NCBI RefSeq assembly: GCF_025822765.1
Contig: NZ_JACKUK010000026.1
Location: forward strand, 62,001-126,000
DNA: 64,000 bases
DNA from: Mycobacterium barrassiae
Lineage (GTDB): Bacteria; Actinomycetota; Actinomycetes; Mycobacteriales; Mycobacteriaceae
Direction: 5' to 3'
The position numbers and the translations under genes were made by a program. Shown here piece by piece: positions 16,922 to 56,634 of this stretch. The notes under the pieces were generated by a model. That model was not told where the DNA came from, did no database searches, and worked only from the letters and a program-made list of their open reading frames with translations. Position 1 is the first letter of the stretch. Every line of letters begins with the position of its first letter.

Positions 16922-16932
16922 TGGTCTGCCCA
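16922..16932. promoter_or_regulatory. Decayed GntR-type operator before the broken fadD operon
   Basis: TGGTCTGCCCA, one base off the TGGTCTGACCA dyad found at 56624. It sits in an AT-rich stretch 33 bp before the ATG at 16966, the same placement as the intact copies have to their genes. The A-to-C change breaks the symmetry. Confidence 0.45.
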
Positions 16933-16965
16933 ATTTAATCATCAGTAAATTTTAGGACTAGCGCA

Positions 16966-18492
16966 ATGACGGTCGCGTCTGGCATCTCCTGCATCCCCGA
17001 CATGGCACGGGCTTGGTCGAGCAAAACACCCGACAAGGCCGCGTTGATCGACCAGGATTGCGTGGTCACCTATGCCCAGCTCAACGACCGATCGAACCGA
17101 ATCGCCAACGCGCTGATCGCGGCCGGCATACGGCCCGGCTCCCACGTCGGCTACCTGGGCAAGAACTCCGCGGCGTTCTTCGAGATCTGAGTAGGCGCCA
17201 ATAAGGCGGGCTGTGGGTTGGCGCCGCTGAACTGGCGGAGTGCTGCACCGGAAATCGTCGAGGTCGTCGACGACGCAAGCGTGTCGCTGATCTTCGCAGG
17301 ACGTGACTTCACCGAACTCGCTGAGCGGGTGCGCCAGGCGACGGAAAAGACCGTCCAAGTCGTTCCCGAATGCGAGCTGGGCCAGTGGCTTTCGCGTGGC
17401 GGATTCGAAGACCCTGCCATTGCGGTACCGCCGAATGCCACCGCGTTGCTTGGCTACACATCGGGCACCACGGCTGCCCCTAAAGGTGTGCCGATTACGC
17501 ATGGCGCTTTGATGAGCTGGTTCCGTGCCGCGGTGACGGAACAGTCAGTGAATTGGGACACCGACGACGTCGGCCTGATGGTCATGCCGAACTTCCATCT
17601 GGCAGGAACATTGGTGTCGCTGCCGGCGCTCTATCACGGTGCGTCTTTGGCGACCTTGCCCGCGTTTGATCCTGCAGCTTTCATCTTCGCCGTCGCCGAA
17701 CACCGGCCCACCGTGACGTGCCTGGTCCCCACCGCGCTGCAGATGCTGTTGGACCATGAGTCGGAGCAGCCGACCGACTTCTCATCACTGCGCCGGATTC
17801 TCTACGCCGGCTCACCCATCGGACAGCACACCCTGCAACGAGCACTCGATGTATTCGGTTGCGATTTCGTGCAGTTCTATGGAACCACCGAGACGTTCAT
17901 CATCACACTGCTACGCCCCGAACAGCACCGCCTTGACGAGCCGGACCTGCTGAAATCCTGCGGACAACCGATGCCCGGGGTGGAGTTGCGAATCGTGGAC
18001 CCGAACGGGCGCGACCTATCCGCGGGCGAGGCCGGCGAGGTCCTGGTGCGCTCACCGTGGATGTTCAGTGGCTACTGGAACAAACCCGACGCGACCGCAA
18101 GCGCGATCATCGACGGCTGGTACCACACCGGCGATGGAGCCATCCGCGACCAGAACGGCAACCTCTTCCTGGTTGACCGACTCAAGGACATGATCGTCAG
18201 CGGCGGGGAGAACATCTATTCAGCCGAGGTCGAACGCGCGTTGGCGGCACACCCGTCGGTGCAATTGGTTGCAGTGGTCGGTGCCCCCGACGAAAAGTGG
18301 GGAGAGCGCGTGGTCGCATTCGTTGTGACCTATCCGGACAAGTCGGCTGACGTGTCTGATCTTGTGTCGCACTGCCGAGAGCTCATCGCGGGATACAAGG
18401 TTCCCAAGGAAATCCACCTGGTGAAGTCCCTGCCGCAAACGGCGAGCGGAAAGGTGCAGAAAGCCAACCTACGCCAACAACTTCAGGGCTAA
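16966..18492 (+). pseudogene. Acyl-CoA synthetase (FadD-like) interrupted by in-frame TGA
   Basis: Reads as a 508-aa AMP-forming acyl-CoA ligase with a single in-frame TGA at 17188-17190. The sequence runs 'NSAAFFEI', stop, 'VGANKAGCGLAPLNWR'; relatives have Trp there (EIWxGAxKAG), so TGG to TGA explains it. Downstream motifs are intact: 'GYTSGTTAAPKGVP' (P-loop), 'YGTTET', 'GWYHTGDGA', 'DRLKDMIVSGGENIYSAEVE' and a final Lys region 'LPQTASGKVQK'. A TTG at 17218 could restart translation but would lack the first 84 residues. First gene of a four-gene operon whose last gene is also broken. Confidence 0.88.
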
Positions 18493-18518
18493 TCGCAGCC
18501 ACCCAAAGGAGAACATTC

Positions 18519-19400
18519 GTGGGCTATCAGTCAGTTTTCAAGGATGACCTGTTCGCCGGGCAGACCGTGGTCATCACCGGTGGAGGCAGCGGCATCGGGC
18601 GGTGCACCGCTCACGAACTTGCCGCGCTGGGCGCCGAAGTGGCGCTTGTCGGCCGCAATGTCGACAAGCTTCGCGCCGTGCAAGACGAGATCCGCTCAGA
18701 CGGCGGACGCGTTTCGATCCATGCCACCGACATCAGAGATGAGGTGACCGTCATTGACGTCGTCGACGCGATCATCAGCGACCACGGCCGTATCGACGGA
18801 CTCTTCAACAACGCCGGCGGCCAGTACCGGGCACCACTGGAATCGATCAGCACCAAGGGTTTTGAAGCGGTAGTGCGCAACAACTTGACCGGTGGGTTCA
18901 TCGTGATGCGCGAGGTCTACAACAAATGGATGAAGACTCATGGCGGAGCGATCGTGAACATGATCGCTGACATCTGGAACGGATGGCCGAACTTTGCGCA
19001 TTCGGCTGCCGCCCGTGGTGGAATGCTGACGCTCAGCGAATCCGCCGCCACGGAATGGGCCGCCGCCGGGGTACGTGTGAACACCATCGCGCCAGGCGCC
19101 ATCGCATCGAGTGGACTTGACACATATGACGACAAGGACACCGACTTCCTCCGTAACCAAGTCGCACGCGAAATCCCGCTGCAGCGCTACGGAACCGAGG
19201 CCGAAGTCTCGGCTGCTGTGGTGTTTCTGCTGTCACGCGGCGCTAGCTTCATCACCGGAACGTGCGTCCGCGTAGACGGTGGGGCACCGAACGCCAAGCC
19301 CGGATGGTGGGACCTGCAACCAGCGGAACACAACACCCCGTTCAACGGGTTCCACCGATCGGCGCTGCCCGTGATCCTCGACGTCAATCAAACGATATAG
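18519..19400 (+). CDS. SDR of the trans-2-enoyl-CoA / 2,4-dienoyl-CoA reductase type
   Basis: 293 aa. Cofactor motif 'TGGGSGIG' and 'NNAGGQ' are normal, but at the place of the classical YxxxK there is 'HSAAARGGML', as in the peroxisomal 2-enoyl-CoA reductase subgroup ('AARAG'). C-terminal 'ITGTCVRVDGG' and a roughly 30-residue extension follow. GTG start with AAAGGAGAA upstream. Lies 26 bp after the CoA ligase and 12 bp before the hydratase. A role in reducing an unsaturated acyl-CoA is inferred. Confidence 0.82.
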   Translation: MGYQSVFKDDLFAGQTVVITGGGSGIGRCTAHELAALGAEVALVGRNVDKLRAVQDEIRSDGGRVSIHATDIRDEVTVIDVVDAIISDHGRIDGLFNNAGGQYRAPLESISTKGFEAVVRNNLTGGFIVMREVYNKWMKTHGGAIVNMIADIWNGWPNFAHSAAARGGMLTLSESAATEWAAAGVRVNTIAPGAIASSGLDTYDDKDTDFLRNQVAREIPLQRYGTEAEVSAAVVFLLSRGASFITGTCVRVDGGAPNAKPGWWDLQPAEHNTPFNGFHRSALPVILDVNQTI

Positions 19401-55060: not shown

Positions 55061-55087
55061 CACAGTGCTTTTCTGTAGGCCTGTGGT

Positions 55088-56605
55088 TTACTTCATGGTC
55101 GGGATGACGAACTCTGCGCCGTGGCTGCCCGCGGGCCAGCGCTGTGTCACCGTCTTGGTCTTTGTGTAGAAGAGGATTGAGTGCGGACCGTGCTGGTTGA
55201 GGTCGCCGAAGCCAGAGCGCTTCCAGCCGCCGAAAGTGTGGTAGGACACCGGCACCGGGATTGGCACGTTCACGCCGACCATGCCGACCTGCACCCGGGA
55301 CACGAAGTCGCGCGCGGTGTCGCCGTCACGGGTGAAAATCGCCACGCCGTTGCCGTACTCGTGTTCAGAAGGAAGTGCGAGTGCTTCCTCGTAGTCGTTG
55401 GCGCGCACGATGCACAGCACCGGGCCGAAGATCTCGTCGGTGTAGATCGACATGTCGGGAGTGACGTGGTCGAACAGGGTGGGTCCGATGAAGTAGCCCT
55501 TCGACAGGTCCGCCTCGTCGAACGTCAGCTCGTCGGTGGTGCGTTCGCGGCCGTCGACGACAGCCTCGGCGCCCGCATCGATGCCCTGCTGGATGTAGTC
55601 CTTCACCCGGGCCAGCGCCGCCTCGGTGACCAGCGGGCCGTAGTCGGCCTTCGGATCGAGGCTGTGGCCGACGCGCAGGCCGTTGACGCGTTCGATCAGT
55701 CTGGCGCGCAACCGGTCTGCGGTTTGCTCGCCGACAGGGACGGCGACGCTGATCGCCATGCAGCGTTCACCCGCGCTGCCGTATCCTGCGCCGATCAGTG
55801 CGTCGACGGCGTTGTCCATATCGGCGTCGGGCATGACGATCATGTGGTTCTTCGCGCCGCCGAAGCACTGCGCGCGCTTGCCGTTGGCAGCGGCGCCGGA
55901 GTAGATGTACTGCGCGATGTCGGAGCTGCCGACGAAGCCGACGGCCTGGATCACCGGATGCTCGAGGATGGCGTCGACGGCTTCCTTGTCGCCGTGCACC
56001 ACCTGGAACACGCCGGGCGGCAGACCGGCTTCGAGGAACAGCTCAGCCAGCCGGACCGGCACCGAGGGGTCGCGCTCACTCGGCTTGAGGATGAACGCGT
56101 TACCGCATGCCAGCGCCGGGCCGGCCTTCCACAGCGGGATCATGGCCGGGAAGTTGAACGGCGTGATGCCGGCGACGACGCCGAGCGGCTGGCGCAGCGA
56201 GTAGACGTCGATGCCCGTGCCCGCACTCTCGGTGTACTCACCTTTGATCAGGTGCGGGATGCCGATCGCGAACTCGATGACCTCGATGCCGCGCTGGATG
56301 TCGCCCTTGGAGTCGGCGACGGTTTTGCCGTGTTCGAGGGAGAGCGTCTCGGCGAGTTCATCGACGTTCTGGTTGACCAGCTCGATGAACTTCATCATCA
56401 CGCGGGCGCGGCGTTGGGGGTTCCATGCGGCCCACTCTTTCTGCGCCGCGGCGGCTCCGGCGACGGCGGCGTCGACGTCGGCCCGCGACGCTATCGGCAC
56501 CTTTGCCTGCACCTCGCCGGTGCTGGGGTTCATGACGTCGGCCGTCCGGGTGGATTGTCCGGCCACGCGCTTGCCGTTGATGAAATGCGAAATCTGTGTG
56601 GTCAT
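55088..56605 (-). CDS. mmsA: Methylmalonate-semialdehyde dehydrogenase (acylating)
   Basis: 505 aa CoA-acylating aldehyde dehydrogenase that yields propionyl-CoA. 'SHFINGKRVAGQSTRT' start, 'GITPFNFPAMIPLWKAGPALACGNAFILKPSE', catalytic Cys in 'GSAGERCMAISVAVPVG', 'FKPTLF'-equivalent 'FIGPTLFDHVTPDM' and 'FGGWKRSGFGDLNQHG'. The frame extends upstream past 56605, but homology starts at MTTQISHF. The operator dyad at 56624 lies 18 bp upstream. Confidence 0.95.
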   Translation of the reverse strand: MTTQISHFINGKRVAGQSTRTADVMNPSTGEVQAKVPIASRADVDAAVAGAAAAQKEWAAWNPQRRARVMMKFIELVNQNVDELAETLSLEHGKTVADSKGDIQRGIEVIEFAIGIPHLIKGEYTESAGTGIDVYSLRQPLGVVAGITPFNFPAMIPLWKAGPALACGNAFILKPSERDPSVPVRLAELFLEAGLPPGVFQVVHGDKEAVDAILEHPVIQAVGFVGSSDIAQYIYSGAAANGKRAQCFGGAKNHMIVMPDADMDNAVDALIGAGYGSAGERCMAISVAVPVGEQTADRLRARLIERVNGLRVGHSLDPKADYGPLVTEAALARVKDYIQQGIDAGAEAVVDGRERTTDELTFDEADLSKGYFIGPTLFDHVTPDMSIYTDEIFGPVLCIVRANDYEEALALPSEHEYGNGVAIFTRDGDTARDFVSRVQVGMVGVNVPIPVPVSYHTFGGWKRSGFGDLNQHGPHSILFYTKTKTVTQRWPAGSHGAEFVIPTMK

Positions 56606-56623
56606 GAGCCCGTTCCTAAGTTT

Positions 56624-56634
56624 TGGTCTGACCA
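56624..56634. promoter_or_regulatory. GntR-type operator between mmsA and the divergent hydrolase gene
   Basis: TGGTCTGACCA within TTTTGGTCTGACCATAGTAT. Perfect 5-bp arms around one base, core identical to the sites at 23341 and 31321. Located between the divergent starts 56605 and 56715, so it can control both. Confidence 0.7.

Follow-up and report, generated by a model that had tools for sequence, protein, structure and literature searches.

A dispersed dyad as candidate operator of a duplicated GntR repressor pair in a catabolic island of Mycobacterium barrassiae

The window analyzed here, a stretch of 64,000 nucleotides from Mycobacterium barrassiae, covers bases 62001-126000 of contig C26 (132,854 bp; 2.3% of the 5.9-Mb genome). 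A short dyad is dispersed over this window before genes of acyl-CoA catabolism. Judged from sequence, these dyads are very probably the operators of a local catabolic regulon under a duplicated pair of FadR-subfamily (FCD) GntR repressors. One regulator gene, gntR1, lies in the window (36343..37113, minus strand), while its paralogue gntR2 is located beyond it (contig 29061-29846). The GntR regulon proposed in an earlier note on this DNA is supported by a matrix derived from gntR promoters of other genomes, which recovers all eight sites named in that note as well as the orthologous promoters of relatives. The regulon extends beyond the window, as four of the 12 sites on the contig lie outside it. 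The repressor pair probably silences the island as long as its inducer, a ring-shaped, plant-oil-like acid, is absent. What was a loose set of acyl-CoA genes has become a defined regulon with a testable operator code and a second regulator beyond the window.

The AT-flanked dyad and its specificity

Motif, specificity, conservation, position and paralogue were all computed. Exact copies of the 9-mer GGTCTNACC were found at 23341(+), 31321(+), 37141-37149(-), 39169(+) and 56625(+), all within three bases of the positions reported earlier (39166 is really 39169, and 56624 is the start of an 11-mer whose 9-mer begins at 56625; the rest are correct). The variants reported at 29309, 29456 and 16922 are present as well. 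Further exact copies, left unnamed in the earlier note, lie at 16822, 20834 and 62045; those at 20834 and 62045 fall within open frames, the copy at 16822 lies outside any, and none of the three is a match to the matrix described below. The window thus holds eight exact copies versus 1.54 expected, and at least eight were reached by none of 100 shuffles. With one mismatch allowed the excess is gone (52 matches in the window versus 49.9 expected). Matching of TGGTNNNACCA with one mismatch was rejected as a signal as it showed no excess (17 in the window versus 16.0 expected). In the whole genome 210 copies of the 9-mer were counted versus 111 of its reversed control. The bare 9-mer was rejected as evidence for being this common; it is weak evidence because of its 210 genome copies and the absence of a one-mismatch excess. 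It had been stated beforehand that a motif equally common elsewhere would speak against the proposal: this was found for the bare 9-mer but not for the full AT-flanked motif.

The informative motif is the AT-flanked dyad TGGTCNNACCA, not the bare 9-mer. Without mismatch, TGGTCTNACCA occurs at nine places in the genome, four of them on C26; all five places elsewhere have GC-rich flanks and three of these are in called open frames. The pattern GGTCWKACCAT has 13 genome places, eight on C26, and the remaining five score below 10 bits by the matrix. The strict AT-flanked pattern WWWDGGTCNDRCCWWWW is found at five places in the genome, every one on C26, a count that is descriptive because the pattern was drawn up after the sites were seen. 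Of the 18 gntR-carrying genomes 17 contain it; 22 of the 59 relatives that lack a close gntR have it too, at scattered positions.

A genome scan with the GntR protein of the window, of which the closest named relatives are mycobacterial, provided 58 loci of relatives: mycobacteria, Pseudonocardia, Streptomyces and close kin, and four betaproteobacteria. The dyad near the gntR start was counted in 56 of these loci (L089, which is cut off, and L090, a weak match, were dropped). At 24 of the 56 loci 9-10 of the 10 dyad bases are present, compared to 2.3% of random windows of the same loci. A symmetric 19-bp matrix was made from 26 of the 56 gntR promoters (23 distinct), none from the genome of the window. 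These training rows were picked for a visible dyad, with Streptomyces and most gntR1-clade rows excluded, and one mis-picked row (L033, 9.2 bits) was kept in the matrix. A scan of C26 yielded 12 matches of at least 13 bits and none between 8 and 13, at contig positions 24724, 29866, 31056, 42560, 78922, 85340, 91308, 91456, 93320, 99140, 101168 and 118624. The first four are outside the window and the last eight are those of the earlier note. Sites 29866 and 99140 are in gntR promoters and are kin of the training rows; the other ten are at kinds of promoter absent from the training set. Markov shuffles of C26 (12) gave a mean of 0.08 matches of at least 13 bits, and 200 permuted palindromic matrices gave a mean of 0.60 matches on C26 with a maximum of 6.

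A matrix scan had been suggested as a check for the whole genome, and over the stretches covered here it bore the proposal out: besides the 12 contig sites, it gave no match of at least 10 bits in 16 unselected stretches of the same genome (320 kb). These stretches are a fairer control than the first one, 26 loci of the same genome (143.5 kb), in which the only match at 13 bits is site 29866 of C26 itself; this set is partly no control because one of its loci (L003) lies on C26. The other matches of at least 10 bits in it (10.9 and 12.8 bits; L028, L031) are in loci chosen for the core dyad. Chance enrichment of a GC-rich 9-mer would agree with the 210 genome copies and the missing one-mismatch excess, but has a negligible probability, as the independent training and the conservation across species exclude it for the full motif.

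The 58 loci of relatives contain 148 matrix sites, 127 of which lie before homologous genes (-60 to 250 bp from the start). Per target, with one site possibly counting for two genes, there are 42 sites at the acyl-CoA dehydrogenase (ACAD) gene ACADb, 24 at gntR1 or single-copy gntR, 21 at the AMP ligase, 21 at ACADa, 20 at the reductase, 16 at luxR, 12 at badI, 9 at gntR2 and 2 at ACADc. Without the gntR-promoter sites and the two Comamonadaceae training loci, 115 sites are left, of which 94 precede homologous targets and 21 do not; the mean for permuted matrices in those loci was 3.9 matches (maximum 64). The off-target sites represent, for 18 of the 21, one place just after gntR in Streptomyces-type loci, which in the one locus examined (L072) is shortly before an enoyl-CoA hydratase (ECH) gene.

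Most mycobacterial relatives have the dyad in their gntR promoters. In three Pseudonocardia loci 8 of its 10 bases are present there, and two Comamonadaceae relatives have it in the form TGGTCTGACCA. In most Streptomyces and most gntR1-clade gntR promoters it is not above background. The matrix still finds orthologous promoters in Streptomyces, namely those of ACAD genes beside gntR. The window contains two luxR genes and one TetR gene, and the dyads could serve these regulators instead. This is very improbable: the motif marks the gntR promoters of Pseudonocardia and of the two Comamonadaceae and the ACAD promoters beside Streptomyces gntR, and its TGGT-N3-ACCA form matches the operators of the FadR subfamily (PMC4494728). 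These operators are AT-rich palindromes with TKGT and ACMA boxes and three nucleotides between GT and AC (PMC4494728); the motif has the form TKGT-N3-ACMA in its sequence, in agreement with the TGGTnnnACCA form given in the earlier note.

The badI gene was surveyed in 18 genomes of the loci. All 15 mycobacterial gntR genomes examined have it at 87% identity or more, and in 11 of them the strict motif is found directly before the gene. Of 61 genomes, including that of the window, only two have a gntR of at least 75%, and the same two alone have badI at 87% or more. The two sets overlap, as one of these carriers (G018) shares coordinates with one of the 15 (G070). Two further genomes of the 61 have badI-like genes at 66% and 60%.

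Two paralogous GntR regulators

The gntR1 product (256 amino acids) consists of a winged helix (PF00392, 59.9 bits, cut-off 27) and an FCD domain (PF07729, 91.1 bits, cut-off 24.3). An AlphaFold2 model has a mean predicted local distance difference test score of 85 and a predicted template modelling score of 0.70, with helices at 95-246. The nearest PDB sequence is 2di3; 1hw1 was found at E 6.5e-4. Residues H168, H213 and H235 are invariant in 24 of 24 relatives and align with histidines of 2di3; presumably these are the metal-site histidines of the FCD domain. The protein scores below all cut-offs of the NCBIfam models for PdhR (101.3 of 330 bits), NanR (99.7 of 260), LldR (82.8 of 311) and GlcC (77 of 301), and below those of the FadR equivalogs (38.4 of 189 and 33.5 of 249.2 bits). 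The PdhR/LldR/NanR group resembles gntR1 in winged helix and FCD domain, in operator form and in providing the nearest models (PdhR, NanR), whereas gntR1 and gntR2 differ from it as two paralogues with one helix over an acyl-CoA catabolic island. The operator of Escherichia coli FadR is TGGTC-N-GACCA-like. FadR belongs to the same superfamily and has a similar operator, but gntR1 differs by its PF07729 FCD domain and is missed by the FadR models.

The genome has 16 FCD-type genes, three of which are on C26. The claim that the gntR gene of the window is the only candidate does not hold, because gntR2, 68 kb upstream of gntR1, has the same recognition helix. Both proteins are 75% identical, the helix SRATVREALRILE is identical and the wing nearly so. 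The third FCD gene of the contig (60752-61582) is not favoured as regulator, being dissimilar and remote from all 12 matrix matches. A gntR tree splits into three groups, single-copy (99/96, full support), gntR2 (91/87) and gntR1 (88/94), with an unresolved branching order. By plain matching, 9 of 10 dyad bases are present in nine of nine gntR2-clade loci, ten of 11 single-copy loci and one of 11 gntR1-clade loci. By the matrix, six of 11 gntR1-clade promoters reach 13 bits, while all nine gntR2-clade promoters, of which rows are in the training set, reach 22 bits. The window gntR thus has a site in its own promoter, as was claimed, but this site is among the weaker and less conserved ones; the strong and conserved self-site is that of the paralogue.

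These clade differences would also be explained if one paralogue only, most likely gntR2, binds all sites, and gntR1 has drifted and is not the main regulator of the window genes. This appears rather unlikely, as the recognition helix is the same in both proteins and gntR1 has been kept beside its half of the cluster in relatives.

Predicted operators and mode of action

The best predicted operator of the contig (contig 29866, 27.9 bits) is shared by the gntR2 promoter and a divergent acyl-CoA dehydrogenase operon. In the window, the site at 56624..56634 (24.6 bits) lies between mmsA (minus strand) and the gene for 3-hydroxyisobutyryl-CoA hydrolase (HIBCH, plus strand), and that at 39168..39178 (22.6 bits) lies 10 bp before the BadI-like gene, a position conserved before badI in relatives. 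The site at 23340..23350 (19.6 bits) is between an acyl-CoA dehydrogenase gene (22076-23284, minus) and a pair of genes for a hydrolase and a short-chain dehydrogenase/reductase (SDR; 23403-25092, plus); it is found at the same place on a plasmid of M. paragordonae (NZ_CP025547.1, L161; 305,730 bp). Two sites score 18.2 bits: 29456..29466, conserved in relatives and 16 bp before the start (29483) of a zinc-type reductase gene followed by an ECH gene, and 31320..31330, before an AMP-ligase operon (ligase start 31401). A site at 16922..16932 (17.8 bits) lies 33 bp before the start of another AMP-ligase frame at 16966, the gntR1 promoter has the weaker form at 37140..37150 (17.5 bits), and the site of two luxR genes and menB (minus) at 29308..29318 is the weakest of the 12 (13.7 bits), with a luxR-side site also found in relatives. 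The dyads do precede gene starts, as reported, but not by 15-75 bp: gaps of about 5 to 80 bp were counted, the luxR start being uncertain.

Binding, repression and an effector are what we infer. A GntR dimer would bind the AT-flanked TGGTCNNACCA at or near the promoter and would block about a dozen transcription units over about 94 kb, until a small acid or acyl-CoA intermediate binds the FCD domain and the repressor is released. All 20 distinct ligase promoters of relatives have a TANNNT hexamer that begins 3 bp behind the dyad, and in ACADb promoters it is found 4 bp behind the dyad in 36 of 40, compared to a background of 1.2% per position. About half of the ACADa promoters have it (12 of 20 at +4, 11 of 20 at -1). 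At two promoter groups, ligase and ACADb, the predicted operator thus abuts the -10 box. A dimer bound there would lie over the promoter spacer, which suggests repression. GntR proteins can activate or repress. An activator or dual regulator would suit the absence of the -10 layout at several promoter groups, but is quite unlikely since the ligase and ACADb dyads end 3-4 bp before TANNNT, and a dimer there would cover the -10/-35 spacer.

Several observations weigh against the proposed regulon or its substrate class. Reductase (0 of 11), gntR (1 of 30 at any offset) and luxR promoters lack the -10 layout, and those of badI have it only in part (4 of 12, at 0). In 32 of the 56 loci the gntR promoter has only 6-8 of 10 dyad bases, including 10 of 11 gntR1-clade loci and most Streptomyces. 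The core dyad does not belong to the gntR1/gntR2 pair alone, as the start of another FCD regulator gene of the same genome (C12:39931; L023 3932) is preceded by TGGTCTGACCA between GC-rich flanks. The counts across relatives are not independent because homologous promoters share descent. In two Comamonadaceae loci the neighbours of gntR are unrelated (TctC, hydantoinase and MFS genes) despite a perfect dyad, which indicates that the operator code is older than the regulon. No BadI orthologue was found in the three Streptomyces-type gntR carriers examined; together with the unrelated Comamonadaceae neighbours this implies that effector or pathway differ there. On the plasmid of M. paragordonae, neither gntR nor mmsA is preceded by a site that reaches 11 bits. 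Finally, the models for cyclohexanecarboxylate-CoA ligase, BadI, BadH and pimeloyl-CoA dehydrogenase all score below their cut-offs.

The AMP-ligase frame behind the 16922 site (16966-18492) has an in-frame stop ending at 17190, with Pfam pieces on both sides, and may be decayed. At contig 24724 a perfect dyad was found for which the nearest gene on that side is a transposase gene, 584 bp off, with adjoining IS21-type genes (C26 22081-24734, L018); possibly this is an orphan operator. Many badI, reductase and gntR2/ACADa promoter sequences (uncounted) carry an extra TGGT half-site 8-9 bp before the dyad, which might allow higher-order binding.

Gene content, proposed pathway and spread of the island

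The genes under or beside the predicted operators start with an alpha/beta hydrolase and an SDR (23403..25092, plus); the SDR scores 112 bits with the BadH model (cut-off 431). The next unit (26134..29302, minus) encodes a MenB-type ECH and two GAF-LuxR regulators. With the MenB models, this ECH, encoded behind the luxR genes, scores above both cut-offs (569 of 378 and 419 of 343 bits); the pathway scheme gives it no role. The zinc-type reductase and ECH genes (29483..31284, plus) are followed by those for an acyl-CoA ligase, a pimC-like acyl-CoA dehydrogenase and an ACS-type ligase (31401..36290, plus), all below curated cut-offs; the acyl-CoA (AMP) ligase is nearest to medium-chain and cyclohexanecarboxylate ligases. 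A MaoC-type dehydratase gene (37601..38059, minus) precedes that of the BadI/MenB-like ring hydrolase (38324..39157, minus), which scores 341.9 of 467.6 bits with TIGR03210 and is also below the cut-offs of the MenB models (352.7 of 380 and 320.5 of 342.7 bits). A valine-type module (52909..56605, minus) comprises a 3-hydroxyisobutyrate dehydrogenase (HIBADH)-type gene, an acyl-CoA dehydrogenase gene and mmsA, of which the product passes the model for methylmalonate-semialdehyde dehydrogenase (630.9 bits, cut-off 448.5). It is followed by HIBCH (56715..57752, plus; 424.5 bits, cut-off 274). Outside the window, a gene of the 3-hydroxy-3-methylglutaryl (HMG)-CoA lyase subfamily is located at contig 35475-36416 (NF004283, 326.8 bits, cut-off 246). 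Thiolase and CoA-transferase-like genes are also under or beside predicted operators, and P450, aldehyde dehydrogenase and alcohol dehydrogenase genes are found alongside the island. An acyl-CoA dehydrogenase frame at 20606-21406 has the middle and C-terminal domains only.

From this gene set we infer a substrate class, tentatively and with somewhat less than even confidence: a 4-alkyl (probably isopropyl or isopropenyl) cyclohexane carboxylic acid. The ring acid would be ligated to CoA and β-oxidised, and its ring hydrolysed by the BadI-like enzyme. Ring opening and one round of β-oxidation would give a 3-alkylglutaryl-CoA, of which the hydrated form is a tertiary alcohol. The HMG-CoA-lyase-like enzyme would then cut 3-hydroxy-3-alkylglutaryl-CoA into acetyl-CoA and a 3-oxo acid, to be re-activated and thiolysed to an isobutyryl or methacrylyl unit, and this isobutyryl/methacrylyl-CoA branch would be finished by HIBCH, HIBADH and MmsA. 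In relatives, the slot of the ACS-type ligase is occupied by a 3-oxoacid CoA-transferase (subunit A in six of six loci tested, subunit B in four of four frames tested), which fits a 3-oxo acid substrate. Both subunits are in this slot on the M. paragordonae plasmid, while one locus (L037) has both the ligase and subunit A.

Leucine and acyclic terpene routes make use of HMG-CoA lyases too. Together with the ring-specific models, all below their cut-offs, this leaves a probability not far short of even that the same repressor governs breakdown of a different class of substrate (plain cyclohexane acids, acyclic isoprenoids or a branched alkyl chain). However, the BadI-like gene is inherited together with gntR and has a predicted operator, and a strong site is present here at the valine-type module, though none on the M. 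paragordonae plasmid.

Systems of this kind are known; new are the regulon itself, the second regulator and the concrete pathway guess. Among the matches listed in the open-access literature (titles and abstract starts; subscription literature is mostly outside it) none dealt with this regulator or with a ring-acid regulon of actinobacteria, and a literal search for TGGTCTGACCA gave nothing on the subject by title and abstract. For the mrc genes of Castellaniella defragrans, it has been proposed that a hydratase, a dehydrogenase and a BadI-like hydrolase open a 4-isopropenyl ring, with methacrylyl-CoA (PMC4109377). For the lrc operon of a methanogenic enrichment, cleavage by an enzyme of the HMG superfamily, a CoA-transferase and a valine-like tail have been proposed (PMC12583861). 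The likeness of mrc and lrc to the island is one of gene set and logic, not of protein comparison. The mrc and lrc routes start without oxygen, whereas the island has P450 and dehydrogenase genes alongside, and the lrc enzyme belongs to the HMG-CoA synthase superfamily, that of the island to the HMG-CoA lyase subfamily. A further comparison is offered by KstR, of which motif and genes differ from those of the island. KstR of mycobacteria is a repressor of a large set of lipid-degradation genes, a likeness to the island, but it is TetR-type and not GntR (PMC1995591).

In some mycobacteria one gntR lies between an ACADa-ACADb-SDR-thiolase-CoA-transferase-HMG-lyase-ECH operon and the ligase-ACAD-ligase-ECH-reductase genes. 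Another set (the genome of the window with a distance of 68 kb, M. vulneris, MYC340, AZCC_0083 and M. hodleri) has two gntR genes tens of kb apart on one contig, each retaining one of the two old junctions. This would be best explained by a single cluster that was split while its repressor was duplicated, a natural case of a regulator duplicated after a cluster split with a seemingly fixed operator specificity.

The M. paragordonae plasmid has nearly the gene order of the window from the hydrolase to mmsA, at ~80% DNA identity over 70% of a 16-kb query, and lacks the MenB-type and neighbouring reductase genes, the ACS-type ligase and HIBCH. Five matrix sites are present on it, before the hydrolase, luxR, reductase and ligase genes and the gene in the place of badI. 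Judged from this plasmid copy, the island is probably mobile between replicons, and the absence of a site before its mmsA indicates that the mmsA link is not universal. The substrate guess is a concrete one for an island that is patchy across mycobacteria, including a megaplasmid of M. paragordonae. It is conceivable, though rather doubtful as a whole, that this is a mobile mycobacterial island for p-menthane-type ring acids, in which the repressor was duplicated at the cluster split, one operator code serves halves 40 to 70 kb apart and strong self-regulation is found at one copy only. The shared recognition helix would mean that this code still serves both halves. The island would then be an aerobic actinobacterial counterpart of lrc, with an HMG-CoA-lyase-type step and an interchangeable re-activation of the 3-oxo acid by an ACS-type ligase or a 3-oxoacid CoA-transferase.

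Near the end of the island on the M. paragordonae megaplasmid a tyrosine recombinase gene and a ParB-type gene are present. At the right end of the window (60559-63970), TniQ and TniB genes and a weak Mu-transposase match suggest a transposon border. Mce-type transport genes (two tested) are located between the two halves of the regulon (C26 49343-57037, L019).

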